Assembly: GCA_033065855.1 (NCBI GenBank)
Contig: JAVXUO010002581.1
Coordinates: forward strand, 868,001 to 932,000
Direction: 5' to 3'
Length of the DNA stretch: 64,000 nucleotides
Origin: Escallonia rubra
Taxonomy: Eukaryota > Streptophyta > Magnoliopsida > Escalloniales > Escalloniaceae
Below the pieces are notes generated by a model, which made no database searches, was not told the DNA's origin, and saw only the letters and a list, made by a program, of their open reading frames with translations. Position 1 is the first letter of the stretch. Each line of letters begins with the position of its first letter. A program made the translations under genes and the position numbers. Below are positions 5,701 to 54,300 of this stretch, piece after piece.

Positions 5701-7206
5701 AAAATGCATTAATTATCTTTATTCAATTATATTTGCATAAAAAATAATCTCATCCAACGTAGAAGGGCGGGGTCTACCTTGTAAACCCCTATTAAGTTTC
5801 ATATGCACCTGAGAGGGAAAATTACTTTGAGTAAAAATGCAAAAATACACCCCCTTACAAGGCTTCATCGAATAATACATTAATTCTTACATATCTGAGG
5901 AAACTACTACAATTTACAGAAAAAACTGAGGGTGTTGCATTTAACTCAAAACAAGAAACTTTTGCCTCAGTCTCTATCATGTTGGGAAGTCCATCTAACC
6001 ATATGCTATTGACACTCGATCCTTCAACTACTAACCATAAAACATACATGCGTGGCCTTTTACAGAAGGCGGCGTCATACTTTCCTTCCAAGGAGACGTG
6101 CAATAGTCCAAAAGAGTCCAGGGTTATGGATATCTGTGCTAGGTGCGCCAACTAAATAATAATATAACTCCCACTCAATTGAACAATTATACTAGGCATC
6201 ATATCATTCTATCCATTCGCATATTGATTCAAGCAAAAAAGAGAAATAAACATGCACGCTAACATACGTAAAATGACGATTATACTTAATCCACAAAAAA
6301 ATATGGAGTATGAATTAAGCATGCCATTAATATATGCAAAATCAGAATATGAAAAAAAAAAATCTAATGCACGAAGAGCAAATTTAGTTAACATTTTTTA
6401 AATTTTTGCTTAGTTATCATATATATTTTTAAAATAAAATCAATAGGTTAAAACAGACAATAAAAATATGATAAGCTAAAACCAAAAATTAGAAACCCAC
6501 ATGCGCGCAGTGCGTGTCAAAAAGAGACCACCATTATGGTCCCATGCGCCAACCAGCTTTCTCCCTCTCTTGGCCGAGAAAACTACACCTTCACGCACCT
6601 ATAGTGGGACGTGACCTACACGTGCTGCCGTAGTGGCAGTTCCTGGCGGCGTGGGTCGCGCAATTCCCTTTTCTTTTAGATTTGGAAACCATTGGTGAGC
6701 TTAAATTCGAATTTTGGTCATAATACGATATTGCGTGGTTCAACAAAGAAAGGAGTGAGAGTGGGAAAAAATTGTTTAGAAAAATAATTTCTAACTCCCC
6801 AAAATATTTCAGATTCGACCCAAAAACCCTAGATTTTCAAAAAATCATAACTCATTCAATTAAGGAACCAATTTCGAAGGGTCTTATATTGTTTGGAAAG
6901 CTAGTTCAATGTAGATTTTGATGGTATCAACCAAGCATCATAAATCAAGTTGAGCAAAAACAGGATTCAAGCCAAAGAATTCAAGTTTATAACTAGGGTT
7001 TGCAATATCTCCCCAATTATAAATATGTTGATACTCAAAATTTGCAGGTACGATCAACGAATCATATAGAAAAATTGACGTGAAAATCAAGTTCTAAACC
7101 TACACGAATCTAAATATGTCATTTACATGTAATCTAGCTTTCAAACGTATAAATCTCAACACATGCTTTCTAATAACGGAAACAACAAAAATGGCTCTAA
7201 TACCAA

Positions 7207-7682
7207 TGTAAAACAAAGCCAATATGTTTAGATTGCGGAAGCGTACCCGTTGAAATTTATCGCACAACAAGTCCAGGATTAAACTTGTTGTTTCACATGA
7301 ATTTATCTTCCCACGGTAGAATCAACTACGTGCTTGACCCTATTCGTGTTCCACCGAACAAAAGTTTTTCCTTCACCAACTAGTGCAAGAGCATGTGTGT
7401 GTTTATCTCTATCTTTTTCTTCTTCACAGATAATTAACCACACCATTTATCTTTCCCTTTTCTTTATATCATTAAGTTCAATAGGTTAATTCTATTCATG
7501 AGAGACTTAATGTGCTCTCTTAAATTTGGGAATTACAACCCATGGACTTCCAAAATAGGTGTTAGAGAAAACCAACAAGTCTCGCGTCAAGCTTGCCCTG
7601 AGCGTACCCGCTCCAACCCGAATTACCGACATTAACATTAACAATCAAGTTAAAACCTAATCTTGGTTTTTGGCTTATGACA
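7207..7682 (-). repeat. Probable 5' LTR of the left Copia element
   Basis: The LTR begins (plus strand) with TG at 7207, directly next to the initiator-Met primer-binding site at 7193-7205. A TATA-like ATATAAAG on the minus strand lies near 7470. The outer end is a guess at a CA near 7682, because the partner LTR is outside the window and cannot be used to fix it. Confidence 0.45.
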
Positions 7683-7727
7683 TTAAAGAGTTTAAAGACA
7701 AAAGCTTCAGTGCCAGGTTTTGAAAAT

Positions 7728-8718
7728 GAGTTTTTCCCCCAAATAATACCATTTTAATACTTAATTACATATCTACTCCATTTTGAAATTTATTTATCAG
7801 CATACCACACTTTTGAAAATTGCGGTTTAGAACCGACTTGCTGTTGCTTTAACCCCCACAGTTTTACTATGGCCATTCACTCTTGTTTTGATAAAAAAAA
7901 ATGGCTTAGGGCGGGTATTGGGTTATCTTGTTATTTCAATTCTATTAGATGTGGATCAGCAGCTTTCTCCACTTTATCTCCTGATAAATTTACTGCTTTA
8001 GCCCATGGATTATTGTTAGCCTCTTCTTGGGCTCTGCAACAAAAGTTTTTTCACATAAAAGTACTAACTGATTCGTGTTTTCTCCTAAATCAGATGGAGG
8101 GCTTTGAGAATATCCTAGATACGGTGGCACCCATCTTCTATGACTTTTGCTCTATGGTAACAGATTATCATCATTATAGTATCGACATGGCAGATCCATA
8201 CCTTTTGAAGGAAGCAAGCTTTCTTGCTACTTTTGCTTGCCAGGCCCGCACAAATATCTATCAAGATTGGGTTGATGATACTGTCTGGATGTAGGCATGT
8301 CTTATTTTATGATGATAGTTTGTACATTGGTAGGGTGCCCCGATAGGTTTTTATGACTGTATAGCCAGATGTTGGCTTTATTTGTATTTCGATCTTGTAT
8401 GGCCTCCGGCCGTGGACTTCCTTTTAAATTATCTATGCAATTCTCTTATTACAAAAAAAAAACGTGATTTAGAACCATGTTTTCATTTCCTTGTTCATTT
8501 TCTGCATCATTTCTCAAAATTTAAGAAAACTCAAGAAAAGAAGAAACTGTAAGGAAAAAAATGGCGCATTAAAAACAAGATATGGAACCACGTTTTCTTG
8601 TTTTAAGTCATGATTCTAAATCGTGACTTTCAAAATTATGGTATGCAGGTAAATAAGTTTCAAAATAAATTAGATAGGTAATTAAGTATTAAAATTGTAT
8701 TATCAAGGAAAAAAACTC
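7728..8718. mobile_element. Hairpin MITE with long inverted arms (copy A), split by a LINE tail
   Basis: The sequence from 7728 (GAGTTTTTC) to about 7830 is mirrored by 8620-8718 (ending AAAAAACTC), giving arms of about 100 bp. The 9 bp outside each end match at 8 of 9 positions (TTTGAAAAT at 7719-7727, TTTGAAATT at 8719-8727). Nine-base duplications fit a Mutator-type element. The arms share the same text as copy B at 62350-62598, so this is a family. A LINE 3' end occupies the loop, so the MITE came first. Confidence 0.75.
7835..8462 (+). mobile_element. 5'-truncated LINE 3' end with RNase H domain and poly(A)
   Basis: The open frame at 7869-8294 (141 aa) matches the plant LINE C-terminal RNase H type: TALAHGLLLASSWAL, then VLTDSCFLL with the conserved Asp, and the closing NIYQDWVDD motif. 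It is followed by a short 3' untranslated region and an A-run at 8453-8462. About 13 bp flank it as an imperfect target duplication (7822-7834 and 8464-8476, sharing TTTAGAACC). The rest of the LINE is missing, as expected for incomplete reverse transcription. Confidence 0.8.
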
Positions 8719-17575: not shown

Positions 17576-20500
17576 TCATCTGGACATAACCAAGCTTGTT
17601 AGAGGAGACGCAACTGAAGAACCAAAAAGAGAATCCCGACCGTACTTGCAGTTTTCATTTTCAACACTTAGTGATGAGGGAATGAAAAACCTATCACTAG
17701 TTCGGGTTCCCAAAATATCTGAGCTGCTTTTGTGCTTGATAACACTGTGATGCAGGTTCTGGTAAGAGTTCCTACTGAGTTTTCTCTTCCTTGAAGATTT
17801 CCACTTCAATTGAGCAAGTGAACCATCTTTCGAAAGATCCTGGACCATCCCTGCATCTTTCATTTTTTCTGTTCCAAAACCCGCTGTAGGGTTACCACAT
17901 GCAACTTTTTTGTGAACAGCACCAACAAGCTTTTTATCAGCACTACATGTAGCTTGGTCAGCTTTACCATCACAGGACTTGATGCTACCTAGCTTTCTTC
18001 CGGAATCAGACAATATGAACGTCACAAGCTCTGGCCTTCCCTCCATATATTTCCACCTAGAACCCAACCATTCCTGAGAAGGTCTCAGGTCACAGCAACG
18101 AAACACTGATTCAAGCTTTTCTCCTGCAATAAGTAAAAGATAGATGTATAATGTAGAGTTAAGAGTAGCCAGCTTACAGAAAACACTATAGGCTTTACAA
18201 AAAGAAACCAAACCAACCTGGGAAATGAACGTGGATTCTATCATCAGATTCTCTCCCAATTACGATGCCTTCCCACCAGCCATCATGCCACCATGCATCA
18301 ACAACACTACCAACACTCTCAACCAATATAGAACTGCCTCCGCTGGAAAGCGGAGACGGCCTAACGGTAGTCCTTCCGCTAAGCCGGTGACTTAATTTAT
18401 CAGGAACAGCAGCCTTCGATGCCAAAAGCCATTCCTACATGGTTCAAATAGTGAAAAAACTTAGTCAGTAACCTAAAAAAAAGGGTAGTAAAACCCAGTT
18501 AAGTAAAATATTTCCTCTCCATTGAAATGCTGAAAAAATATATAATGATTATAAATTTTAGTTTCTTCACCTCTAGGTTGCTAGCTTCATCACATGCATC
18601 CTTGATATCCAAATATCGCACTTTGACCTTATCTTTGCTCTTGCGGATGATAATAGCTCTAAACCAGCAGCCTCTAATGCCACTATCCTGGGAGAGCACT
18701 TCAACTTGAGATCCCACACTTAAATGTTGGGGTTGCTCCTGCATAATTGCATCCTTTCCGGATGAAGAGGCAGCAGAGGGAACTTCTTTCAAACTGCAGG
18801 TTCCATTTCCACCTTTGGAACCAATTGAGCTGCCACCAACATCCCGCACATCTAACCATACATTTGAAGCCTTTTGTTTGTTAGCAGACTGCGAGAGCAG
18901 ATTATCATCTCTTGATCGACGGAGCCTCTTCTTGTGTCTGATTTCGGGATCATCACAATTTCCTTCCACTATTGGGCCATCATTCGGGGACTGAGACTTC
19001 AAATGAACCTTTGAAGCAGGTGTAGCAAACATGTATCTAAGTATTTCTTGTTTCCAGTAACCTTTAATTTGGGTCACATCATATGGCTTGATTTCGTCAT
19101 TCTCAAACTGCCTGTGACATACAAATGGCTCCAACTGAGTGTGTCTAGCCTCTTTGAGAAATTTCTCGTAGTGCTGGAGACTAAGAACGGACGCCAATCC
19201 ATCGATGCATTCAATACTTAAATCTTGAATACAAAGAGAAAAGAAAATCTCTCTGTCATTATAATTGTGAGGTAAAACAATACCAACCTCATCAACTTTA
19301 TGAAACCACCGTACCACAACAGTCTTGTTGCCTCTGGAATCCTCATACATATCATCCAAGTAGGCAACAAGTCGTTTATCTTCTTCAGCTAATACATATA
19401 CAAAGTCATGAACCTGGAAAGGTGGGAAAAAAACAAACAAGAATATAATGAGTTTAATCCAAAACTAGATATGGCTCAAAAATTAGCCCAAAATGAGCAT
19501 CTAAAGAAGAGAGATAACCCCAATAGTACTTACAGAGATCTCAATACCATTACGCCAAAATGATTTATAGTGTCTCCTCTTTTTCCTGCAAGTCCATGGA
19601 GAACCCAGCCAAAAATATTCTGTAGTATGCTTGCCCAGCTTTCTTGATTTAGCGAACTGGAAAATATAAATTACAAGACAAAACCCAGAAGAAGCTTAAA
19701 ACGTGTGGAACACATAAGGGAGAGCATTAAGAAAATCCAAAAGATTAAGTAAATAAGAGAGAAGTCAAGTGCCGAATTCTTTCATGTACCTCTAACATGT
19801 CTATGTCTGTCTTGCAAGAATTTCTGTCGTCCAAGGAACCGATAACTTGCTGGGGTGCACAATGAGGAAGCAAGCCTGAATCTAATTCCAAAAACAAAAA
19901 AAAGCAATTACTATTGTAATCAAAGGAATGACGTGATTTACGTCTAGGAAAATTGAAAGATGGCCACTAGTTATCTGCGGTAGAAACAGAAGAGATGTGC
20001 AAACAATCAATACACCACGACAGTCAAAACATATATGACGTAAAATGTAAAAAAGTTTATGTATCTAAGCTGCAAGGTGGTTAATGTTTCATCAGGGCAA
20101 GAAAAAATGAATAGAAAAAAAAAGTAACAAGCAAAGATTAAGTGAAGAAGCAAAACAATTGGCCATGAGAGAACATTGTAGACCTTGACCTAGATTGAGG
20201 GCATATGAATTCCGAGGCTCTCAACCAGCTCTTGGAATTTGATTTTCCTGCAGCCCAGATCAGAGTCAGTTTTCAATACATAAACCTCAACTTTGAGACG
20301 GTGAAAAACTCTATGAAGGAAGAAGATGGAAGATCTAAAGAACTATAAGTCAGGGAAGTCCTAAAAGTGTAAAATCTTCATCGACAGATCACTTCTTTTG
20401 GAGAAGCGAATAGACCAAAAAGAAAGAAGAAAGAAGAGATAAAATCAACTCCAAGAATGCTAGAGCCTTCCAACTCCACAAAAAAGACTAAAACAGGCGA

Positions 20501-25798: not shown

Positions 25799-26099
25799 GG
25801 CCCCGTACGCTTACCATATTCGTTTTCTGTTTTTAGCAATGATGATGAAAAATATTCTTTTTTTGCGTACTTTTATCATTTTCTGTTTTCGTTTTGGATA
25901 AAATTACTCAAATAATAACAAAAAACTGAAAACACCTAAAAGGTGTTTCAGTTTTTTTCACTCAAACTTAACTCAATATAAGAAAAAATAACTAATTTTT
26001 TTTTTTTAAAATGATAAAAGTACATGAACGGATTTTCAAACTGAATATGAAAATCATGAAAATGAAAACAGAAAACAAATATGGTAAGCGTACGGGGCC
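25799..26099. mobile_element. MITE with GGCCCCGTACGC inverted ends
   Basis: The left end GGCCCCGTACGCTTACCATA is mirrored at the right end. The inverted match runs for about 37 bp with one or two mismatches. The roughly 300-bp body is AT-rich and non-coding. CTTGG occurs directly outside both ends, but I cannot fix the target-duplication length, so the superfamily stays open. Confidence 0.7.
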
Positions 26100-28263
26100 T
26101 TGGTAACTTAGGCTCTGGAACTAAGATTTTGATGAGGGTGTGATCCCTGCTTCACCATTTCTGGAAATAATGTATAAAATATCTGAACGGTTCAACTTGT
26201 ACATGCATATGAAAATTCATTGTGTGATAGTCTAAAAAGAAAGTAAAGAAGATCCTATTGTTCAGACTCTGTATCTAGTCACCATTGATTAGCGTTTGAC
26301 GGTATATGGTTGAGAGCGATTGGCATGTCGTGCTCCCCGTTAGAAAGAGGGAACTCACTTAATTTTGAGATCTTTATGTTTGCATAATGAGCCCTGATGC
26401 GAAAAGGAAGGATCGGCAGGCCGCCGGGGACACGTAGGGCATAGGAGACGGCACAAGTGACGGCTAAGCCGGCCCCTCCGAAAATTTAGGCCTTCTCATA
26501 AGGCGGGAATTGCTTTTGGAAATTTTGGAATCTCCCTCTCCCCTTCAAAGTTCAAACTTTAAAAATCCTTCAGATCTGACCGGTTCCTTCCCTTCACAAC
26601 ATCCATGGCCTAGCTCACGTGAAGTGGTACCCCGCAGTCACGTGCCCCTTTCTTTATATGGTGCAAAAGAGAATAAACAATATTGTGTCTACATTTAAAG
26701 TTAAAGCATTTTTTGGGAGGTAGAATGGGCTGCAGGCATCTCTTTGTGCTTTCCGTGCACATGCAACTTTCAGCTGGTGCATTTGCTTTTTTTATTTTTA
26801 TTTTTATTTTTTTTATAATAAGAAAATTATATTGATAATTAAATAACGGTTACAAGAGCCACAATCAGGCTTGTGACTAACTACAATTAGATTGTACTTG
26901 CTTTCAAGACTTCAAATATTCAAAATATAGTAGAAAGACATTTATATCACCATCTTATAAAAACAAAAGCAAAATAGGAGCGGGAGATCATTCATAACAT
27001 ATTGTCGTGCACCCAATCCTAGTGGACGTCAATGCGTTTCTGTTATGCAAAAGTTGTTAGAGATCTCGTTTCTTTTAGTTGCGATACATGTACCATGTCT
27101 ATGTTGTACTCATGAAAGTCGGATGCTAGATAATAAAAGTCATACAAAATGAGTGCGACACAATCTCTAAAACTGGCGGAGTTGTGTGTATCGTACAAAT
27201 GTCAAATGTTTTTGAAAAAAAAATGTATAAGCCTTTTTAAAAATTTGATTTTTGATAAGAAAACTGGAATCTCGAGAACTTTTGAGAATCCTTTATCTTT
27301 GTCACAATTAAAAATAATTTTCTTATGAACACTTACCCATTTGATTATTGTTTTCTTCAGTTTGGTTTTTATCTTCTTGAAAATGTGAAGTTTTTTAAAG
27401 AATGCAACGTCTAACTTGTTTGGATATCAATTTTTAAATAGCAATACTATATAACATGTATGAAAAATCATTTATGCTAACTGAACATCATTTTCAATAT
27501 ATTTACATCTCAAAAGAATTGAGGTGAGTTTCAATAATATTTTTGCAAAGAATTGACAAATAGTAATTAATTTGGTGCTTTTGAAAACACTAGTATAATG
27601 CACGTGCGATGTACGTGAATGTTAACATGTGACAAAATTAGATTATTGTATAGAAAAACCATAACCTCATGTATTATATAGATTATGACAATCATTTTCA
27701 GTAATTCAAGTATACATGTTAATATAATTGAAGTAAAAAAGGCAAGTTAAAATTTAAACGTAGATGCATGAGTATTGTCCTAAAAAAATGTTATGAATCC
27801 ATTTTAAAAATATTAATTGTCTCACAATTACCTCATCTCGCACAACTTTTATATAATATAAAAAAGTGTAATTCAATTTTATGTCAGTGATGGTCCATCT
27901 CCTTATAATGGTCTTACCCACCACTATTTTGAAGTAAAAACAAATATAATTAAGAACTATGGCATAGTTCAACTAAAAGGTATTTAATAGCCAACATAAT
28001 AGTATTATCTTTATGCCAACATCTATAAAGTCGTAGTTTTTCGACTTTAGCTTTTAATCATTTTTTACTTGTTTCTCGTATTTATATTATTTTATAGTCT
28101 AATTTGATGAACACAATAGTTGTCGTGAATGTCTCACAGTTGTCCTTAGTCACCGTATTTTATGAAATATTTTTCATATTTAATTTAATTTAATTTAATT
28201 TGAGAAAGATGTTCTTATAAGATTAGTATATAACTAATTTACTTGTTAGGAATTGCTGCAATG
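26100..28263. other. Intergenic with a possible LINE tail
   Basis: Mostly AT-rich. At about 26788-26850 a T-run is followed by ATAATAAGAAAATTATATTG, which on the minus strand looks like the poly(A) end of a truncated LINE; I could not find its target duplication. 27200-28260 is AT-rich with no gene seen. A short TTTAA repeat lies at 28180-28200. Confidence 0.4.
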
Positions 28264-29069
28264 AAAGGTTGATGCCAAGGAAAGTGGGTTCGTACCTACG
28301 TGGAGGTGCCACAAAGGCTGTCGTCCGAGTCAGCTTCCAAGTATGCAAAGTGAGAGACAGTGGGGGCGGAGTAAGGGCAGAGAGCAAGACTTCTCAGACA
28401 AGCCGTAAGGAGTGGCAGTGCTGCGAAGACAAGGCTGAGACGAACATGGCCGATAGTCGACAGTCCAAGTCAAAGTCCGAGTCAGGGTCCAATGCTATGG
28501 TCCAAAGTTATGTCCAATTTGTGTTTCTCTCTTTAGAATCCAAGAGCTCCCAAATTCTAGAGTGGGAAAGTGATTTTGTGAAAAATGAGCAAAAGTCCCT
28601 TTTTGAGACATAAAGTCCACTATTTATAGGAAACAGTGTGCATGTGTCATAAAATGTCACATGTCGTCCCCTGGGAGTGACACGTCACCAGGGGTCCCAA
28701 AAATCGGTTCTATGTTGGACTGTCGGTTCCTAAATTCGTGCTACCTGCCCCACACAGCGTCGCTCTACCTGTCTGAGAAGATTGAACACACCATGACAGC
28801 ATGATCAGAGTAAGCCCGTTGCCCCAGCCACCGGTCGAACCCTTACTGAATCCCATAAGGTGCGTTAAGAGACGCGTAGAGAACCTGACAGCGGTGAGGG
28901 TTCCCCTGTAGCCAACTTCCAGGCAGACTAAGAGCGATGCCTTCCAAAGACTTGTTCCCGTCTCGGAGTGACCCGGGGGTCATCGTCCTGGGGGTGCCGA
29001 TGATCACCGGTAACGTGAATGGACATGGTCATAGCTTAGTGCTCAGTGTCATGTAAGTCACCCCAGACG

Positions 29070-29330
29070 GCGATATCTTTGTGGTAACGAGCTTATCCTG
29101 CTGCGAAGGGTCCTCGTGCCGAAGCACTACGAGCGAAGCCCCCCAAAATGAAGACGGTGATAGCTTTGTGGTAACGAGCCTATCCCGCTGTGAAGGGTCC
29201 TCGTGCCGGAGCACTACGAGCGGAACCCCCCGAAATGAAGACGGCGATAGCTTTGTGGTAATGAGCCTATCCCGCTGCGAAGGGTCCTTGTGCCGGAGCA
29301 CTATGAGCGGAGCCCCTCAGAATGCTGCAC
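29070..29330. repeat. Tandem repeat, about 87-bp unit, three copies
   Basis: Units begin near CTTTGTGGTAA at 29078, 29164 and 29251 and carry TATCC(C/T)GCTG(C/T)GAAGGGTCC. The opposite arm of the giant inverted repeat has this unit once (about 32395-32470), so the array grew in the left arm only. Confidence 0.8.
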
Positions 29331-29472
29331 ACTCTGGAGAGTGGGACGAAGCATGTTCCACGTCCATGGCGTGGGCACATGGTGTGGTGAATGAATATGA
29401 TGCCCGGAGGCATGTAACATGATTGTGGCACATGGGCGCAGTGTCTATAGCACAAGAGATTGGTTGTGGCGC

Positions 29473-29830
29473 ATGGAAGTGGCGCACGGGCGCGGCGACA
29501 CAATACCTGGTGCCGGGGCACGTATCATGGAAGTGGCACACGGGCACTGCAACGATCTTCGCGGAGACAATACCTGGTGCCGGGGCACGTATCATGGAAG
29601 TGGCACACGGGCACTGCAACGATCTTCGCGGAGACAATACCTGGTGCCGGGGCAAGTATCATGGAGGTGGCGCACGGGGGCGGCGACGACCGTCGCAAAG
29701 ATAATACCTGGTGGTACTGGGGCACGTATCATAGAAGTGGAGCACGAGCGCGATGACGATCGTCGCGGAGACAATACTTGGTGTCGGGACACATATCATG
29801 GAAATGGCGTACAAACATGGTGATGAATGT
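29473..29830. repeat. Tandem repeat, about 67-bp unit, five copies
   Basis: Each unit holds a version of AATACCTGGTGCCGGGGCA followed by a GTATCATGGAAGT-like stretch. Two neighbouring units (from about 29530 and 29597) are nearly identical, while the outer ones are diverged. The right arm of the giant inverted repeat has only one or two copies (about 32190-32290). Confidence 0.8.
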
Positions 29831-32800
29831 CGTGGAGACGGTGCACATGCGCGCGTCGGGTGTCCCTAAGACGTGGCGTGAGCCAAGTGTGCAGGTTATA
29901 CCAAAATAATAAGTACAATATTCAGTAATGACAAAGTTGGGAAAGATGATACGCGGTCGTCAGCGACGGGTCATTCGGCGGTAACGCCTGACTTTGGGCT
30001 ACGGGCATCGCGGAAGCGGTGCATGGTCGCGAGCAACAGACAACGGACGTCGCAAGGTTGATGTACGGGCATCGATAAACATCGTGAAGGTGCAAAGACT
30101 CGAGAAGACAAGTGCACGCGGGATGGGAGGCCGATGGCCAAACAATTGGGGGAAGGCCAAGGCCACCACCCCTGGGGAGGCTGAGGCCGAGGCCGACCTT
30201 AGGGGGTGGCCAAGGCCAAGGCCAATTCCCCCGAAGGGGGGCCAAGGTCACTCCCCCTTTTGGTGAACTTCGGGCACGCTGACGGTAGGTGTTTTGATGG
30301 GCAATGATAAATCGGGAAGTTAAGGTACGACGAGCGTGTTGTCATGAGTCATACCCATGTGACGAATAAGGTGCCAAAGTCACATACGAAATGTACGAAG
30401 CGAACAAAGCCCGAAAAGGACTTTGCACAAAAGGTGAACAACCGGGGGGGGGGAGGCCAACCCCCCATGGATGCCGAGGCCGACCCCATGGGGTTGGCCA
30501 AGGCCTTTGCCCCTTGACCCCATCACTCCGGTTGTGCCGTCGGTTGATGTTTTTGGTAAAAAGGTGTTCGGGTGGTCACGGCGTGATGATCGTGCTACCT
30601 TGAGTCACACTAACATAAAATAATTGGTGACTAAGTCGCGCACAAAGCGTGCGAAGCGAAAAACGTACGTGACTTGGGCGCGCGCACTTTGACAGGTTCG
30701 AAGCATTGAAAAAATGACCGTTGAATGTGTCGACGTGTTCGCGCGAAGCGGGTCCCTTAGTGGGCCCTTGGGTCCGACCAAGATAGGTTGGGAACAAAGG
30801 TTAATAACTTCGAACGCTTAAAACATAAAATATGAATATATATTTGCAAATACACGACTACTTTCCATAAATAATATGATTATTAAGATTTTCCTTGTTA
30901 AATGAAAAGGAATTATATGTTGCAAACCAAATAGCAACCACGCTGTCAATCACTTCCAATCTAATTACTGTAATATTTTGTCGCCTATAATGATGTAGTG
31001 GTATTTTTAACTGTTCATGTTACCTTTTACTGGCAAGTGATGAGGCAAGTGATGAATTATTTACTCCCTTGCTGATATGGTGGTAAATATAATTTGATTA
31101 GAAAAAGAAGTACTTTCGAAAGAGAAAACAAATGAACAGAAAAAAATAATGACTCGTACAATTGAATTTATTTAAATTTATTCTCTTCTCTTTTCGGTCA
31201 CGTCAAAAGTGGTATGGAGAATTTTTTATTATTTTAAAGTTAATTTCTGATTGCAAATGCGTAGAGCTGTCCATTCATGTAGTATCCAGTTAGAGATTGT
31301 CCAAACACGTCGACACATTCAACGGTCAATTTTTCAACACATCAAACGTGTCAAAGTGTGCACGCCTAAGTCACGTGTATTTTTCGCTTCGCACGCCTCG
31401 TGCACGACTTAGGCGCCAATTATTTCACGTTAGTGTGACTCACGGTAGCACGTTCGTCACGCCGCGACCACCCGAACATCTTTTCGCCAAAAATATCGGT
31501 CGACGGCGCAACCAGAGCCATGAGGTCAAGGGGTAAAGGCCTCCCCCTGCCCATGGGGTCGGCCTCGGCCTCCCCAAGGGGTTGGCCTTGGCCTTCCCCC
31601 CAATGTTTGGCCTTAGGCCTTCCCCAAGTCACCTCATCCCCGTGCAATGTCCATTTTCGTGCGTTGTTCACTACGTACGCCTCGTGTGTGATTTTGGCAC
31701 CTTGTTCATTACGTGGGTGCGACTCACGGAAACACGTTCGTCGTACCTTGACTGCCCAACTCCTCGTTGTCCACCAAAACACCAATCATCGGTGTGCCCA
31801 AAGATCACCAAAAAAGGGGGGAAGTGGCCTTGGCCTTGGCCACCCCCTAAGGTCGGTCTCGGCCTCCCCAAGGGGGTTGGCCTTCTCCTTCCCCCAAAGT
31901 CCGGCCTTCGGCCTCCCCTTTCATGCGCATTTGTCTTCACGGGGTTTTGCGTCTTCGCGATGCTCACTAATACTCGCACACCAACCTCGCGACATCCGTC
32001 ATCCGTGGCCGCGCACCGTCTCCACAATGCCCGTCACCCAAAGTAACGCGCTACCCCTGAGGGACCCTTCGCTGACGGTCACATACCACCAAACTTTGTC
32101 ATTACTAAAGATCACATTATCATTTTGGTACAACATACACACTCAAGTCTCGTCCCGTCTCCGGGACACCCGACACGCGCATGTGCGTCGTCTCTGCGAT
32201 GGTCGTCGCCGCGCCCGTGCGCCACTTCCATAACATGTGCCCCCGACACCAGGTATTGTCTCGCCACGGTCGTCGCCACGCCCATGCACCACAATCATGT
32301 TACATGCCTCTGGGCACCACACTCATTCACCACACCATGCGCCCCCGCCATGGACGTGGAACATGCTTCGACCCACTCTCCGGAGTGTACAGCATTTTGA
32401 GGGGCTTCGCTCGTAGTATTTCGGCACGAGGACCCTTCGCAGTGGGATACGCTCGTTACCACAAAGCTATCGCCGCCTGGGGTGACTTGCATGACACTAG
32501 GCACTAAGCTGCGACCATGTCCACTCACGTTACCGATGATCGTCGGCGCCCCTAGGACAATGACCCCCGGGTCACTCCGGGACGATAGCAGGTCTTTGGA
32601 GGGCATCGCGCCTAGTTTGCCTAACAGTTGGCTACAGGGGCAACCCTCACCGCTGTCAGGTTCTCTACTCGTTTCTTGACACACATTTGTGGGATTCAGT
32701 AAGGGCTTGGACCAGTGGCTGGGGCAACGGGCTTACTTTGATCATACTGTCGTCAGTCTTCTCAGACAGGCAGAGCGACGCTGTGTGGGGCATGTAGCAT

Positions 32801-33519
32801 GAATTTAGGAATCGACAGTCCAATGGAGAACCGGTATTTTTGGACCCCTTGGTGACGTGTCGCTCCCAGGGGACGACATGTGGCACTTGATGACACATGC
32901 ACACTGTTTCCTGTAAATAGTGGACTTTATGACTTATTCAAGCACTTTTTTGGCTTATTTTACAAAATCACTTTCTCACTCTAGAACTTGAGAGCTCTTG
33001 GATTCTAGAGAGAGAAACACAATTGGACATAATCTTAGACATAACATCGGACCGTAGCATTGGATCCTGACTTGGACCTTGACTTGGACTGTCGACTACC
33101 GGCCCTATTCATCTCAGCCTTGTCTCTGTAGCACTGTCATCCCTCACGGCCTGTCTGGAAAGTCTTGCTCCCTGCCCTTACTCCACCCTCACTGTCTCTC
33201 ACTTTGTATATCTGGAAGCTGACTCGGACTGCAACATTTGTGGCACTTCCACGTAGGTACGAACCCACTTTCTTTGGCATCAAAAGGTAAATAAGAATTG
33301 AAGTCACAATAATTTACATAGTCAAAGACAAAATGTGCTATTTTCTTGTAAGGAAGACAAATTATACTTGGCAAGTGTTCATCAACTTACGGTGGGATGC
33401 CTATCTAAAGGAAATGATAGACATATCTATTAATTTTTACTTTTAAGATTCATATTATAGAGAGGCGAAAGAGGTAGAATCGCCCTTAGTTCAATGGCTG
33501 TGTTGATACTTAATCAATA

Positions 33520-34070
33520 ATTAATATGGAATGAGTAATTTCAAGATTTTATTAGGGCATGATGTTCACAGCATAATTTTCAATCCTTAGACAACAAAAA
33601 ACAAATAGGAATATGATGAGAGTACTTTATAACAATCAAATGAAGAGAAAGAAAGTTAAGTTGCTCAACATTTTGAAGTTTGCTTAGAGAATTACCAACC
33701 ATTGCATGACCAAACCTAATTCATACAATTAAGACACACGTGCGTGGGCGCGTATATATGCACAAATATAATATCAAGCTTTAAAGCCAAATATAGAAAA
33801 GTTGAAGGAAAATATTAATTACCTATTTATTACAATTTTTGTTTTATATTTTCATTTTCATCATTTTCGTATCCAGTTAGGAAACATGGTGGTCTAATTT
33901 AATGATTTTGACCAAAATAAAAATAAAAATTTGCTACTATTCTCCGATAATGGGTGAGAGATGGCAACAAAAAAAATAGGTGTTTTCACATTGTCGTACT
34001 ACTTGGGTAAGAATTTTTTACGACAAAATAGAAAATAGTAAACATACATGATGATGGAAAAAATATTCTT
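33520..34070. repeat. Direct duplication, copy 1
   Basis: About 550 bp of AT-rich DNA closely repeated at 34391-34928, offset about 873 bp, roughly 90% identical by eye. Shared landmarks include TCAAGATTTTATTAGGGCAT and CATATCCAGTTAGGAAAC-like text. It is non-coding. No terminal repeats or target duplication were found, so it could be a tandem segmental copy rather than a transposon. Confidence 0.75.
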
Positions 34071-34390
34071 GGTCAAAGTTAATTGTTCTACTTTTGTTAC
34101 AAGACGTTATCATCATTAAGGTCTCGTGTGTCCTAATTTATGTAAAGTATTACGTTGTGGATGACAATGAACATACATTATTTAAGTAATGATAAGTTTT
34201 ATGAAAAATGAGAGATACATTCATGTACTAATTATAGCATTCATGAGTAGTGAAAAAAATGGATTTGATAAAAGAATCTAGATTCTTGGTATGTCAATTG
34301 TATGGCAATGTAGTAATTTTAAAAGACAAGAAGGGTATTGTGGTCCAAAAAATAATTTTCAATGATCCACACTTTTGTATGTAGTACGGA

Positions 34391-34928
34391 TAATTAATAT
34401 AGAATGACTAATTTCAAGATTTTATTAGGGCATGGCTCACAGCATAATTTTCAATCCTTAGACAACCAAAAATAAATAGGAAGATGATGAGAGTACTCTA
34501 TAACGATCAAAGGAAGAGAAACAAAAGTTAAGTTGCTCAACATTTTGAAGTTTGCTTAGAGATTTACTAACCATTGCATGACCAGACCTAATTCACACAA
34601 TTAAGACACACGCGCATGCGCGCGTATATATGCACATAAATAATATCAAGTTTTAAAGCCAAATATAGAAAAGTTGAAGGAAAATATTAATTACCTGTTT
34701 ATTACAAATTTTGTTTTATGCTTTCATTTTTATCATTTTCATATCCAGTTAGGAAACATGGTGGTCTACTTTTATGATTTTGACAATTTTTTTTTTGTTG
34801 TTGCTACTATTCTCCGATAATTGGTGAGAGATTGCCAAAAAAGATAGGTGTTTTCACATTGTCGTACTACTTGGGTAAGAATTTTTTAAGACAAAACTAA
34901 AAATAGTAAACGTACACGATGGAAAAAA
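34391..34928. repeat. Direct duplication, copy 2
   Basis: Partner of 33520-34070. Its right end meets the first unit of the 38-bp tandem repeat in the Gypsy LTR piece. The 320 bp between the copies (34071-34390) are AT-rich without a gene. Confidence 0.75.
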
Positions 34929-34929
34929 T

Positions 34930-35045
34930 AGTATGGGCTAGTGCCTTGACGGACTAGTCGGAACATTGGTATGGGCTAGTACCTTGATGGATTAGTCGGT
35001 GTATTGGTATGGGCTAGTACTTTGACGGACTAGTCGGTGTATCTA
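34930..35045. repeat. 38-bp tandem repeat, three copies
   Basis: TATGGGCTAGTACCTTGATG-like units start at 34932, 34970 and 35008, each ending GACTAGTCGG with small differences. They lie inside the Gypsy-type LTR piece. Confidence 0.85.
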
Positions 35046-35823
35046 TGATTGTCTGCATCGTATCTAAAATTTTCCTTTGATATCTGATCGAATTAGTTAT
35101 GATTCTTTTGAAACTCTTGAAAAATTATCATTGAATTGCATCTGTGAATTATTTTGTAATCTCTATGTATTACGGGATTTGGTGTGGGCAGAAATGATTG
35201 GATTTGTGCTTGTGTTGAAATCCTTTGAGAAATTTTCTTGGTACTTTGGAAATGATGACTTTGGAAGTGATCTTTTATTGATCGTTTAGAAACCGTCGTG
35301 ATTGTTATTGTTATTTTGCTATCGATTTATGACGAATTTTGATTAATTTGGACATTGAGTTTTTGATCGTTCGAAGTGTTTTGAAAATTTTCGTCGGTTG
35401 GATTCTTTGGAATTGTTTTTTAATTCTTTGTTAATCCTTGTACGACCTTACTGAGCTCTCAAAAGCTCACACTTCGTTTGATTCCTTTCTGCAGGTTTTG
35501 ATCAACAGTAGATTGCTCGGGAATGGGATTTAGAATCTGTGTGAGATTCCGGTGAGCCTACCACTACTGTATAGTAAGACCCTTGTGCGGGTCGGTGCTG
35601 TTAACACGTTATATAAGGACTCGAGTTTGTAAAGAACCTAGGTCTTAATAGTTAAAGTTTAAGTAATTTTGTAATATTGTATTTGAGGAATTTGAATTGA
35701 TGTCTAATTAGATGCTTTGAAGTGTATGTTAGTGAACATGATCTGACAGGTTTGATGTGATCCGAGAGGTTAACGACCCGGAAGTTCGGGGTAGCGGAGC
35801 TCTGAATTTCTGAGGGCGTTACA
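34930..35823 (-). mobile_element. Gypsy-type LTR fragment
   Basis: On the minus strand this begins TGTAACGCCCTCAG at 35823. TGTAACGCCC is a common LTR start in chromovirus-type plant Gypsy elements. It includes ACCTGCAGAAAGGAATCAAA near 35495, also usual in such LTRs. No internal domain or partner LTR is present. The low-coordinate end is not fixed; it abuts the direct duplication. An old solo or truncated LTR is the likely explanation. Confidence 0.55.
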
Positions 35824-36205
35824 GGACATTGCAGACACAGTAGCACCCATCCTTTTTTATTTACGTCATCTTCTAGCTGATTTGCACTTTTGTCAAATTG
35901 AAAGGAAATTGCCGTTGCAAATGCAGGAGGCTCGATCCTTAGCCAAGTATGCAGGTAATGCTAGGATCATGGTATACCAGGACTGGATACGAGTTGTGCA
36001 TAAATAGTTAAAGATTGTCTCTATTGCGCTACTGTAGTAAATAAATTGCTAGGAGAATGCTCAGTGTGACGGGTGCAGTCTGCTTTTCGTATGTATGTAT
36101 CAGTCATGGAATATGTCATGACCTACAAACTGTTGTACCGGCACTAACGTGCCCAATATGTTCTACGTTAATGTTATTCTCGTATTTATATAAATAAATA
36201 AAAAA
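35824..36205 (+). mobile_element. LINE 3' end with RNase H tail
   Basis: From 35824 the frame reads DIADTVAPILFYLRHLLADL and ends YQDWIRVVHK before a stop near 36008. It parallels the LINE tail at 7835-8462 (DTVAPIFYDF and YQDWVDD). An A-rich end lies at about 36190-36206. ACAGG occurs at both edges, a possible short target duplication. It starts exactly where the Gypsy-type LTR ends. Confidence 0.7.
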
Positions 36206-38368: not shown

Positions 38369-39580
38369 GGGTTAATTACTCACGGCACCCCTGAGGTTTG
38401 CCCTAAATTACACACGGCCCCCGCCTATCTTTGTAAATTACACTCCGCTCAAAAAATCTAGATTTTTTTGACGGTGTTAACGGCTGGTCATAAAAAGACT
38501 TTTTTGCCCTCGTATATAACTACACAGTGTCTCTTGGGTTTCAGAGGGAAATCAAAACGTCTGGCTTTGGAACTCCCAATGCAGCAGCCACCCATGACCG
38601 ACCTTCCTTCCTTCCACTTTCGAGCTGTCGCCGCTCCCTCTATAAACTCCTCTCTTTGCACCCTTCCTCTCTCCCTCCAAAAATCTCTCTCTAAAAACAT
38701 GTCACTCTTCAGAACCCTCACAAAACGCCGCACCTCTCTGGCCAGATCCTCCCGTTACATGAGCAACATCCCTGAAGACAGCGTGTACGGTGGACCCAAG
38801 CCCCAGAACCACAACCAGAGGGTGACCCTGACTCACCTGCGCCAGAAGCACCGCAAGGGTGAGCCCATAACCATGGTCACCGCCTACGACTACCCCTCCG
38901 CCGTCCACCTTGACTCTGCCGGAATTGACATCTGCCTCGTCGAGGACTCCGCTTCAATGGTGGTTCATGGCCACGACACCACACTGCCTATCACGCTGGA
39001 CGAAATGTTGGTGCACTGTCGTGCCGTTGCGCGCGGCGCTAAGCGGCCGCTCCTGGTCGGGGACCTTCTGTTCGGGACATACGAGTCTAGCTCTCACCAT
39101 GTAGAGTTTCTTTGTGTTACCGTTTTGAATTCGTGGAAAAGGGCTGAATTTATTAGGCTTTGATGTTGTTCCGGCCTGTAATCCTTGTTAAGAGTTGCAA
39201 TACCAATAGTTTTGTGGGGTTGTTTAAATTTCCTGACCTTGACATTTTTTGGTTAGAAGGGAAAGAATGAAGTGAAGGAAGAAAGGAGGAAGAATGAGAA
39301 ATAAATGGGTCTGCAGAAGAGAAAGAGAATGAAGAAGAAGAAGAAAACCTTAAAGGGCAAAAGGGGTTTTATTCAAGAAATGGAGGGCAATTTGGGGATG
39401 AAAAATCCAAAAAGTAAGGGGTCAGAGCATCTTTGGACGGAGTTAGGGTCCCCGTCAATTTTGCGGGGCTCCGTGAAATGCGGGTACAAACCTGGGGGGA
39501 GCGGAGTGTAATTTTTAAAAGATAGGGGGGTTCGCGTGTAATTTAGGGTAAACCTCAGGGGTGCCGTGAGTAATTTACCC
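38369..39580. mobile_element. Pack-MULE carrying a host gene fragment
   Basis: Inverted ends GGGTTAATTACTCACGGCAC / GGGTAAATTACTCACGGCAC stay alike for about 80 bp. The perfect 9-bp AAAATTTTA flanks it (38360-38368, 39581-39589). Long inverted repeats with a 9-bp duplication define Mutator-like elements. Between the ends lies the 5' part of a ketopantoate hydroxymethyltransferase gene plus about 300 bp of GA-rich text of unknown origin, and no transposase. That makes it a Pack-MULE. It is nested in the hAT at 37494-39820. Confidence 0.92.
38699..39100 (+). pseudogene. Captured first exon of ketopantoate hydroxymethyltransferase
   Basis: The 134 codons start [18 protein letters not shown] and run to SSSHH at a GT splice donor. 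KPHMT (panB family) makes ketopantoate for pantothenate/CoA synthesis, in plants in mitochondria. [40 protein letters not shown] and [20 protein letters not shown] are near-exact family text. Family enzymes are about 350 aa, so only the first third is here. Two family-conserved positions differ: VGDS reads VEDS and GDLPFGTY reads GDLLFGTY. The open frame extends upstream to an ATG at 38468 near the MULE end, so a chimeric peptide is possible. Part of the first intron follows 39100. The parent gene is elsewhere. Confidence 0.9.
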
Positions 39581-40129: not shown

Positions 40130-40458
40130 GTGGTACTTCTACCTAAGCCGAAAGCTCCCTGCTTGAAAGTTAATAAAACACCCTTAACAAAAACCTTAGT
40201 ACTAGTTGGAAAACAAATAAGGTTCCAAAGTAGTCCAACGAACTCGATGACATGGCCAATGTCCGGGCGATGTGAACACTGCGCAGTTCCAACTACCTTC
40301 ACCTCGTCTTCTCCGTCCCCCCCACCTTCATTTCACACTCCACTCCATCTCTCTCCCTCCAAATCCACCATTAACATTCAGCTCGTAATCGTGATATATA
40401 CACTGGTCACTCCTCCTCAAGCAAAACCCACAAACCCATTTCCTCACATTTCTCTACA
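40130..40458 (+). promoter_or_regulatory. Promoter and 5' leader of LTA2
   Basis: Only about 330 bp separate the plastid-DNA border repeat from the LTA2 start codon. The last 150 bp are rich in CT and CCT runs (about 40305-40360), usual for plant 5' leaders. No clear TATA box is visible. The transposon stack upstream therefore borders, and may have displaced, the distal promoter. Confidence 0.45.
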
Positions 40459-43400
40459 ATGTCTTCCCTCCTCCAATCTAGGGCTCCCGCGCTCTCCTTC
40501 TCCTCCTCCCTCTCCCCTTCTCCCGCCAACCCCTTCCGACGCCCCTCCGCGGCGTTTCCCTCCAGGCCCCGCCGCACAAACACCAAAATCCAGTCCAAGA
40601 TCCGGGAGATCTTCATGCCCGCGTTAAGCTCCACCATGACCGAAGGGAAAATAGTCTCGTGGATCAAATCCGAGGGTGACGTGCTCTCCAAAGGCGAGTC
40701 CGTCGTGGTGGTCGAATCCGATAAGGCCGACATGGACGTGGAAACCTTCTACGGCGGAATCCTCGCCGCCATCGTCGTCGCGGAGGGCGAAACCGCCCCC
40801 GTCGGCGCCCCCATCGGCCTTCTCGCCGAGTCCGAAGCCGAAATCGCCGAAGCCAAGGCGAAAGCCGCCAGCTCAGGCCCCTCAGCTCCGTCCCCGCCGC
40901 CTCCTCCACCTGCTGCGGCAGCTCCACCACCACCACCAACACCGGTAGCAGCAGCACCAGCTCCTTCAGACGGGCCCAAGAAGATTGTGACCACGCCGTT
41001 TGCTAAGAAGCTGGCGAAGCAGCACAAGGTGGACATAAATACGCTGGTGGGTACGGGGCCGTTTGGAAGGATTACGCCGGCGGATGTCGAGGCAGCGGCT
41101 GGAATTAAGCCCAAGAATCCGGTAGCCGTTGTAGCCCCGGTTTCTGCAGCTGAGGCTCCGAAAGCGGCTGCTGCTCCGAAAGCGGCTACATTTGCTGAGA
41201 TTCCAGGGGCTACTACAGTGCCCTTTACCACAATGCAGTCGGCCGTATCTAAGAATATGCTGGAGAGTTTATCCGTGCCGACTTTTCGGGTAGGGTACCC
41301 GGTTTCAACCGATGCCCTCGATGCCCTGTATGCTAAGGTACATTAATTTATGATGTTTGTTACAGCATTGGGTTTAGGACTGGGGGAATTTGTGATTTGA
41401 CTTGGTGTTGATTTTTTAGGTTAAGAAGAAGGGCGTGACGATGACGGCCTTGTTGGCCAAGGCTGCGGCCATGGCCCTCGCACAGCACCCAGTTGTGAAC
41501 TCGAGCTGCAAGGATGGGAAGAGTTTTACGTACAATGGTAGAGTTAATATCGCGGTTGCGGTGGCAATCAATGGTGGGTTGATCACCCCTGTTCTTCAGG
41601 ATGCTGATAAGGTAATTTTGATTGGTAGAGTTCTGTTAAAGATTTGTGAAATATTCCATCTGTTTTACAAGTTTTCGTACATAATTTTCCTCAAATTATA
41701 GGATAAGTGCGAATATATAAATACTGAATCTAATGAAATTAGAAATAGAGATAAGATAAGTATAGTTTGACAAATTAAACTATGGCTAAAACAATTAGTA
41801 GAATCAAACTTACAAGTTCAGAAATCTATTCAAGGAATTTGCAAAAAGGCTAATGGGAAAAAATTGTGAAACAGAGGAGTAAGCAGAATGTTGTTTTCCT
41901 GGTCTTTTTATTGTTGTGGGTAACCCATCTTCTTTGCTGGTGTAGTTGGACCTTTATCTGTTATCTGAAAAATGGAAGGAGCTTGTGGAGAAAGCCCGGT
42001 CAAAGCAACTTCAGCCTCATGAGTACAACTCAGGTTTAATTTTTTGTTATACTAATTTTCCCTCCAGAGCACAATGTCATTTTCAATAATTTAGCTTTGG
42101 TTACCAGGACAGTTGAATTCAACTCGTGAGTTAGAATAAACAAAATTGAATTTTACTCATAGCTGGAATAAAGCTCCAAGTACAGAGAAGAACAGGGGAC
42201 TATGCCAAACATGGCAACTGGACAATCAGAGAATACTAAAGGAAATAGCATAGGCTTATGTTGATATACTTTTTCAAACATATGTTCTGTATAGTTTTGG
42301 TGGTAAAGATGTAAATAGTTTTTTGAGCCATGAATGAAATACAAGGACTTTTGACCAAAAAAAAAAAACAAATTTGAATTTTACTGGTTTTGCATACAGG
42401 GACTTTCACTCTCTCCAACTTGGGCATGTTTGGAGTGGATAGGTTTGATGCTATTCTTCCTCCAGGCCAGGTTAGTTAAGAGAGCCAAAACTCTCACCTA
42501 ACGTCAAACATAAATTTAAGCATTAAATTGTGCATTGTGTTCTCAATTTGATGGATATATCAGGGGGCTATCATGGCTGTTGGAGCATCAAAGCCTACTG
42601 TTGTAGCTGATGCAGATGGATTTTTCAGCGTTAAAAGTAAAATGCTGGTGAGTATAGTTTATAGCTCTTTTCAACATCCATGCTAAAAGAAAATATGCGG
42701 CAATGTATATGTGGGTATTGCAAAACATAATAGTTATATTGGGAATACTTGTGTTGACCAATTTGGTAGCATGCAATTGATATATGATTGAAGATAAAAC
42801 CCCTTCGTTGGTACTTTGATCTGTAGGAATAAACTCAAAACCAGTCTCAAGTAGAGCAGGAATGGAGGATGCATTCAGTCCTGGACTTTATGTGAGGAGG
42901 AGTAGGTTAGGTTTATAAGCCATGGGTCCCACGATATGCCATGGGAAAGTAAATAGGCTAGAGTTGCCTTATTCCCTACCACATCAAGTGTCCTGCTTAT
43001 AGCTTCGGCTATTCAGAACCTGGTTCTCCTGCGTACAGGTTGTCTAAATGTAGCCAGCATATTAGATTTCAGGCCATGGGTTTTTGGTCAAACTTGGTAT
43101 GAAACCATTAGCATATTATATGAGTTCCATTCTCCTTGGCTTACCCTTCTTGTAAGGCAAACCGATGCATACTGTGCCATATATGAAAGTTAGTCTGCCG
43201 TCGCGAACCAAAGAGGTGATTCTAAGCCATCCGTAACCAATAGCAAACCAACTAAGCCTACCCTCTATGCACTGGATACCCAAAGATTGAAGCCTGTACA
43301 TGCTGTGTTCAGAGACGAACCAAGAACTAGGTAGCATTGATATAGGCAACGCAGCACATATGCGGACATTTGACATGGACACAGAACAAGAAGAAACAAA

Positions 43401-51311: not shown

Positions 51312-54300
51312 ATCCCCACCATTTTACAAAATATAAAAACAAAATAAAAAATCAGATCTTATTATCCAGTGAAGTACATGCATAAATGAAGATGTCTTAT
51401 GACTTGAATCTTCACTTAGTGATTACACAACAAGACTAATCTGAAAAGTGTGGTAGATAAACTTTGAACCACCTATCCTTGTTGATTAGCCGGTCACATT
51501 TCACACATGAAACTCCTATCCATACACAAATCCAGAAAACTGCTTATACAATAAAGGCCATGTAATTTGTATCTTGTTTTCATGAGTGCTCTAGAGTTAA
51601 GCCTTTTAAACTCGATAGAAGCGGCCCCACTTCACACTCACTAGTCAGGTCTATCAAGAGTGCACCGTAACTAACACCCCAAAGAATGATCCTTTTATAG
51701 ACCTATTAAGAGCATAATACTCACCCTATTCTTTCATTACGGTTACCAAGCACATGACTTTGGGATGACTAAAATTTGTGCTTCAATCACCAACATAATG
51801 TACTTTTGACTCGTTGAACTCAAGACTTGGTGTTAGCAAGAGTTGAGTCGAGATTTCCATCATTTGTGATCCTTGACATGGGCTTGAGACCCATCCCTCG
51901 TGAGATCCTAATAATCATTTCCCTTGGAAGCCCTTTAGTTAACAGATCCGCTAAATTTTTTAATGACCTCACAAATTCTAATGTGATTACTCCTTCGGTA
52001 ATCAAATGCCTCACGTAGCTATGTCTAAGACCAATGTGTCTAGACTTTCCATTATACACTTCGCTACATGCTCGTGATAGAGTTGATTGACTATCACACC
52101 TTATCGATATCGGAGCCATAGGCTTAGGCCATAAATGAATCTCTAAAATCAAATTCTTTAGCCATTCTGCCTCTTTGCCCCCTGCAGCTAAAGCAATAAA
52201 CTTTGCTGCCATGGTAGAATCAGTAATGCAAGTTTGTTTCTTCGAACCCCAGAATATTGCACCCCCACAAAGTGTGAAAATCCATCCATTTATGGAAGCA
52301 TAATCTTCCTGATTCGTAATCCAACTAGCATCTATGTATCCTTCCAAAATAGAAGAATACCCGTTATAACATATGCCGAAATCCATGGTTCGTTTAAGGT
52401 ACTTAAAGACCCTATATACTACATTACAATGCATACTACTAGGACAACTAGTATATCTACTAAGTTTTCCTACTGCATAAGCAATATCCGGTCTAGTACA
52501 AGTTATGGCATACATTAGGCAGTCTATTGTACTCGCATATTCTAGTTGTCTCACAGCTCTACTATCATTGGGAGACAACTTAATACTCTCATCAAACGGA
52601 GTACTAACTGGTGTGCTGTCCAAATGGTCAAACATTTTTAACACCTTCTCAATATAATGAGATTGTGACAAGGTTATGCAACAATTATTCCTTATGATTT
52701 TAATTCCTAAAATCACGTCAGCAACACTCATGTCCTTCATTTCAAAATTATCGGATAAGAATTTCTTTGTCTTTACAACTTGTTCCAAGTCAGTACAAAA
52801 AATGAGCATATCATATACGTATAAGCAAATGATAACTCCCTTACCGCCATCGAACTTACTGGATACACACTTATTCGATTCATGTATTTTAAAACCATTA
52901 GACATCACAATTTGATCAAACTTTTGATGCCACTGCTTAGGGGCTTGCTTAAGTCCATACAATGACTTAATCAACTTACAAACTTTATTTTCTTGCCCAC
53001 GTACAACAAACCCTTCTGGTTGTTGCATGTATACCTCCTCATCTAATTCACCATTTAAGAATGCCGTTTTAACATCCATTTGATGAATTACTAGCTTATG
53101 GATGGAAGCTAGTGCTATAAGCACCCTAATAGTGGCTATCCTTGCAACTGGTGCATAAGTGTCAAAGTAATCGACACCTTCCTTTTGGGAAAATCCCTTA
53201 GCCACTAACCTGGCCTTAAAATTTTCAATCGATCCATCGACCCTTAACTTTTTCTTGAAGATCCATTTACAACCAATGGGTTTAGAACCGGGTGGTAAAT
53301 CCACCAATTTTCATGTTCCATTTTCCATGATTGAATCAATCTCTTCATTTATTGCTTCTTTCCAAAAAGAAGAATCTTGAGATTTCATGGCCTCTTCATA
53401 AGTCTTAGGGTCAGATTTCACATTTAAAACAATCGGTATGGAGTTTTGTATTGCCGTCCTAGTTCCTTCTACCAAATACATGTAGAAATCGGGTCCATAT
53501 GTTTTAGCAATTCTCATTCGTTTGCTGCTCCTAGGTTCCACTTTATTTTCATGGTTTTCCTCAACTTCACGTTGACCTTCCTTTTGCTCAACTTGCTTAG
53601 GAAGTGATTGGAACCTACTTTCGTCAAAGATGGCATCTCTAGATTCAATGATAGTGTTTTTAGAATAATAATCATTTTGTTCCACTACCATGAACCTATA
53701 TGCTTTACTGTGTAAAGTATAACCAATGAAAATACATCAAATGCCTCTTTCACCCAATTTCTTTCTTTTTGGTTCCGGAACTCTTACAATGGCCCTACGA
53801 CCCCAAACTTTAAAATAATTCAGATTAGGCTTCCTTTTCTTCCATAACTCATAAGGAGTAACATTATTTCCTTTAGTTGGAACTCTATTCAATATGTAGC
53901 AAGCCGTTAATAAAGCTTCCTCCCAAAATCCTTTTCCTAGACCCGAGTTGGAGAGCATGGCATTAACCATTTCGACTAATGTCCTATTCTTTCTTTCCGC
54001 GACACCGTTCTGTTGTGGTGTATACGGTGCACAAAGTTCATGTACTATGCCATTTTCTTCAAAAAATGGTGGATCATAGTACTCTCCTCCCCTATCGGTT
54101 CTAAGTACTTTTATTTTGGCATCACAAAAATTTTCTACTTCATTTTTATATGTGACAAAACTAGGCATGGCATCATTTTTATTATGCAATAAATAAACAT
54201 AACAATACCCATAATAATTATCAATGAAAGTCATATAATATGAGTTTCCTCCTAACGAAGGAGAGGAGTGAAAATCTCATAAATCACTATGTATTAAATC

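Follow-up and report, generated by a model that had tools for sequence, protein, structure and literature searches.

A giant inverted repeat in Escallonia rubra, most probably composed of two separately inserted solo LTRs of a Tat-type retrotransposon

Introduction

Ogre elements usually carry a primer-binding site complementary to tRNA-Arg. A published study (PMC6317226) gives a second RNase H located between RNase H and integrase as the mark of Ogre and Retand elements, names tRNA-Arg among the primers of non-chromoviruses, many of which have tandem arrays and LTRs up to ~5 kb, and states 5-bp target duplications for 93.4% of elements. Foldback and long-inverted-repeat DNA transposons are the other systems that a large two-armed structure brings to mind.

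We analyzed a stretch of 64,000 nucleotides from Escallonia rubra (assembly GCA_033065855.1, contig JAVXUO010002581.1, positions 868,001 to 932,000 of the forward strand), hereafter the window, in which a preliminary description had reported a giant inverted repeat and had proposed either one unit of unusual origin or a DNA transposon with long inverted repeats. The locus resembles solo LTRs of the Tat lineage (Ogre/Retand-type) in its TG...CA ends, its 5-bp target duplication and its long G+C-rich LTR with internal tandem repeats, and relatives elsewhere in the genome show the tRNA-Arg primer-binding site after the 5' LTR and, in one case, a second RNase H. It does not differ from them in kind, and is set apart only by the head-to-head placement and by a 57-bp loss in the right copy. 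The likeness to foldback or long-inverted-repeat DNA transposons is a superficial one of two-arm layout, whereas here the arms appear to have been inserted separately, the loop is host DNA and the family occurs mostly as direct repeats.

Structure of the inverted repeat

The large inverted repeat was borne out by self-comparison and by alignment of the arms. The paired blocks lie between 28269 and 30739 on the left and between 31304 and 33283 on the right (85% identity over 900 aligned columns in the outer block and 74% over 1,049 columns in the inner block), and along the whole arms 1,613 of 1,933 aligned positions agree (83%), with 640 gap columns. Two arms of 2-2.5 kb had been described; both are present, although they are unequal in length (2,527 bp on the left, 1,979 bp on the right). 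The outer tips read ...CATCA and TGATG..., in agreement with the TG...CA layout claimed for them, and both are LTR 3' ends, so that the view of two LTR right ends facing outward also stands. The pair resembles one giant inverted repeat because the orientations of the LTRs are opposite. A TATA box had been placed about 360 bp from each tip. We found a TATA-like box in both arms, but it is intact in the left arm only, because in the right arm TATAAATAG is replaced by TGTAAATAG, which differs by one base. The features of the locus are collected in Table 1.

Table 1. Features of the inverted repeat and its surroundings, in coordinates of the window.
Feature	Position	Strand	Basis
Older non-coding host repeat, segment 1	27589..28269	+	Matches in repeat copies elsewhere
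Target-site duplication of left LTR, copy 1 (AAGGT)	28265..28269	.	Junction reading and empty-site alignment
Left arm: complete solo LTR of the Tat-type Ty3/gypsy family, 2,527 bp, TGTTCCC...GGCATCA	28270..30796	-	Ends and length read
TATAAATAG in left LTR, 359 bp from its 3' end	28620..28628	-	Read in sequence
Target-site duplication of left LTR, copy 2 (AAGGT)	30797..30801	.	Junction reading and empty-site alignment
Host repeat, segment 2 (loop between the arms)	30802..31303	+	Matches in copies elsewhere
Right arm: another solo LTR of this family, lacking its first 57 bp; 1,979 bp, ends in GGCATCA	31304..33282	+	Alignment with relatives
TGTAAATAG, one-base variant at the matching place of right LTR, 371 bp from its 3' end	32912..32920	+	
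AAAGG, read as surviving 3' target copy of right LTR	33283..33287	.	L028, L033 and L034 read ...CATAAAGGTAAATAAG without LTR
Host repeat, segment 3	33283..34386	+	Matches in copies elsewhere

The left arm by itself has the make-up of a solo LTR, with TG...CA ends, AAGGT directly on both sides and no internal region. On the right, host sequence ...TTGTCCA is interrupted by the LTR minus its first 57 bp, after which follows AAAGGTAAATAAG. The 5' target copy of the right LTR was probably lost in a deletion at 31303/31304, and its target duplication can be read at the 3' junction only, because the 5' end is deleted. Two ordinary elements with separate target duplications had been named in the preliminary description as the outcome that would speak against it; for the left arm this was found in full, and for the right arm at the 3' junction only.

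The left LTR contains tandem repeats of 87 bp (3 copies) and 67 bp (4.6 copies) at 29065-29324 and 29500-29809 of the window, and in the tandem-repeat listing these arrays do not appear for the right LTR. An ORF inside the right LTR (31439-32230) showed one weak, sub-threshold match to TPR_TNPO3_IPO13_2nd (E = 0.0051), which was put down to chance. An Rfam scan of 26000-36000 returned nothing at gathering scores.

Identity of the LTR family

The family tip, at up to 1 mismatch, is present at 2,897 places in the 566-Mb genome (3,222 contigs). With the primer-binding site behind it and up to 2 mismatches allowed, the count is 833 (backward control 0 in both searches); the junction form CATTTTGGCGACTCNGCTGGGGA has 510 exact occurrences. 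The primer-binding site TTTTGGCGACTCYGCTGG follows three of the 16 distinct tips outside the window (L018, L019 and L024). In L018 the full site reads TGGCGACTCCGCTGGGGA and is complementary to a sequence made up of the 3' end of a tRNA-Arg(ACG) gene from this genome and an added CCA; primers of this type are usual in Ogre elements. About 0.9 kb downstream of the tip and primer-binding site lies a gag-like region, four pieces of which were compared with Pfam: L024:303-701 matched Retrotrans_gag below the cut-off (21.4 versus 24.1 bits; E = 0.00029), and the remaining three matched no Pfam family. On contig C938, two tips 14.4 kb apart point in the same direction, and a 3-kb piece from between them (L045) gave the domain order RVT_1 (two pieces), RT_RNaseH, RVT_3 and Integrase_H2C2 (six pieces scanned, one without match). 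In this one copy RNase H and integrase are separated by a second RNase H, the arrangement known from Ogre and Retand elements.

The arrangement of the copies was counted from exact-match tips in contig order. Among the first 100 of the 2,897 tips listed, there were 17 neighboring pairs within 12 kb, of which 16 were direct, 1 inward and 0 outward, and in 11 of the direct ones, by hand count, the 5' member carries the primer-binding site. Direct copies in which a primer-binding site follows the 5' LTR are the configuration of an LTR retrotransposon; a genome search for direct-orientation LTR copies had been suggested beforehand, and its result favors the LTR reading of the tips. Judged from these sequence features, the LTR family is a Tat (Ogre/Retand-type) Ty3/gypsy retrotransposon.

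The host repeat and the two insertion sites

When the loop (query 30801-31303) was searched against the genome, 155 first-look candidates were obtained, 40 of which were scored; another part of the host repeat gave 186 first-look candidates. Twenty loci (L025-L044; 18 of 9,901 bases and two shorter), chosen because they hold the loop, were examined. The left flank of the palindrome (within 27589-28269) adjoins the loop in all 20, and the right flank (33283 on) follows it in 15, the exceptions being L029, L030, L031, L035 and L044. Two arms around the loop were seen in none of the 20 loci (matches of 150 bases or more); under the same threshold L028 and L037 have one family tip each, away from the loop. 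The three host segments of the window are thus, from their matches elsewhere, one older non-coding repeat of ~2.3 kb. Several copies start near ACTAGTA and end in a variable GATATA-rich stretch, and any stop-to-stop ORF in the L025 copy (4054-6313) is shorter than 100 aa. The loop, which had been taken as part of the element, is host repeat DNA.

Two side observations concern copies of these repeats. Part of the host repeat is tandemly duplicated at 33517-34500 of the window, with a spacing of ~871 bp. At 7538-9901 of L037, a family LTR tip (7538-7785) is split from the remainder (9262 on) by ~1.5 kb of other sequence.

Once the LTRs had been removed from the window and the host pieces put end to end, the resulting sequence was aligned with every one of the 20 copies except L041. 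Site 1 is continuous in each of these 19, apart from a one-base gap in L043, and 14 have AAAGGT at this point. Site 2 is more variable. Three copies without LTR (L028, L033 and L034) read ...TACATAAAGGTAAATAAG unbroken, with AAAGGTAAATAAG in place; L036, L037, L038 and L044 also run across, with one or more changes in AAAGG; L025, L026, L027 and L032 run across with ~20 bases missing; L039, L040, L042 and L043 are without a stretch just before the site; and L029, L030, L031 and L035 diverge. The unbroken site 2 with AAAGG is therefore a matter of three copies; two of these, L033 and L034, share a contig and agree at 96% along most of their length. Since both sites are crossed by LTR-free host copies, the arms are best explained as separate insertions.

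The matching 6-bp flanks of the preliminary description are real, but they are not the target duplication of one element, as L028, L033 and L034 carry both AAAGGT stretches without LTR. The match is a coincidence on this evidence, because the two stretches belong to different host positions already present in LTR-free copies. With two given sites and equal base frequencies, the prior chance of such a match is 1 in 4,096, and this improbability counts against two insertions.

Kinship of the arms and chance of the pairing

Among the matches listed, the best copy elsewhere reaches 91% identity with the left tip; for the right tip the figure is 89%, compared with 85% between the outer 900 columns of the arms, so each arm has closer kin elsewhere than its partner. 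In a 17-row tree, for which best hits to one arm or the other were selected (L013 was dropped as too short), the nearest rows of each arm do not include its partner; three of the 14 inner branches have strong support, and the terminal branch leading to the right arm is long (0.17). Match coordinates (best 40 or first 100 places) were used to judge whether the inverted arrangement recurs, the tip loci reaching ~2.1 kb inward. If the 2,897 tips were scattered at random, ~1.9 head-to-head pairs with a gap of up to 510 bp would be expected, and one such pair accordingly needs no explanation.

Origin of the locus

Two LTRs of a Tat-lineage Ty3/gypsy family almost certainly inserted independently, ~0.5 kb apart and in opposite orientations, in an older ~2.3-kb repeat, and now remain as solo LTRs. 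Two copies of the family would have entered the host repeat separately, and the internal region of each would later have been lost, most likely by LTR-LTR recombination, a step presumed from the solo LTRs. A small deletion, whose junction shares AA, may then have stripped the right LTR of its first 57 bp and its 5' target copy, along with ~20 bp of the host repeat. We infer that the events took place in this order.

The two outer tips, both LTR 3' ends, and the matching 6-bp flanks would also be expected if one palindromic product of reverse transcription, with a U5 end at both tips, had integrated as a unit and AAAGGT were its single target duplication. However, the loop of such a product would not be host repeat DNA that adjoins both outer flanks in LTR-free copies, nor would the left LTR by itself be bordered immediately by AAGGT at each end; the arms are 83% identical and each has closer kin elsewhere, and LTR-free host-repeat copies crossing both sites, the result that contradicts this origin, were found. 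We regard it as extremely improbable. Inverted arms and TATA-like boxes are likewise what a long-terminal-inverted-repeat DNA transposon whose ends contain promoters would display, but there is scarcely any likelihood of this for a family whose members are direct repeats in 16 of 17 close pairs (first 100 tips listed), in which a primer-binding site follows many tips and one copy flanks pieces of reverse transcriptase, RNase H and integrase. The centre is moreover a separate repeat, and the two arms do not behave as one unit sharing one target duplication, the left arm having its own. A false join of loci during assembly seems, from the sequence, hardly credible either: the host segments keep the order and orientation that they have in other copies, which a chance join would not give.

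The locus is thus a case of ordinary nested repeats. Reading the tips as LTR ends was right and reading the whole as a single element was wrong, the unit proposed in the preliminary description being replaced by two LTR insertions at two sites of a host repeat. Opposite solo LTRs in a repeat-rich genome can mimic a new giant palindromic transposon, even down to matching flanks, and LTR-free copies of the surrounding repeat settle such cases. It is a very improbable further idea that this chance head-to-head pair, if read through, could yield a hairpin RNA of ~2 kb with 83% matched arms; if true, it would be a source of small RNAs silencing this LTR family elsewhere in the genome.

Other features of the window

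Polyprotein pieces with RVT_2, and with SH3_retrovirus, gag_pre-integrs and Pol_BBD, were detected on the minus strand at 51823-53310 and 3102-4714; we take them to be of Ty1/copia type. Three probable host gene exons were also observed: a ketopantoate hydroxymethyltransferase match at 38462-39160 (+), biotin/lipoyl plus E3-binding domains at 40375-41343 (+), and Agenet plus BAH domains at 18502-19464 (-).
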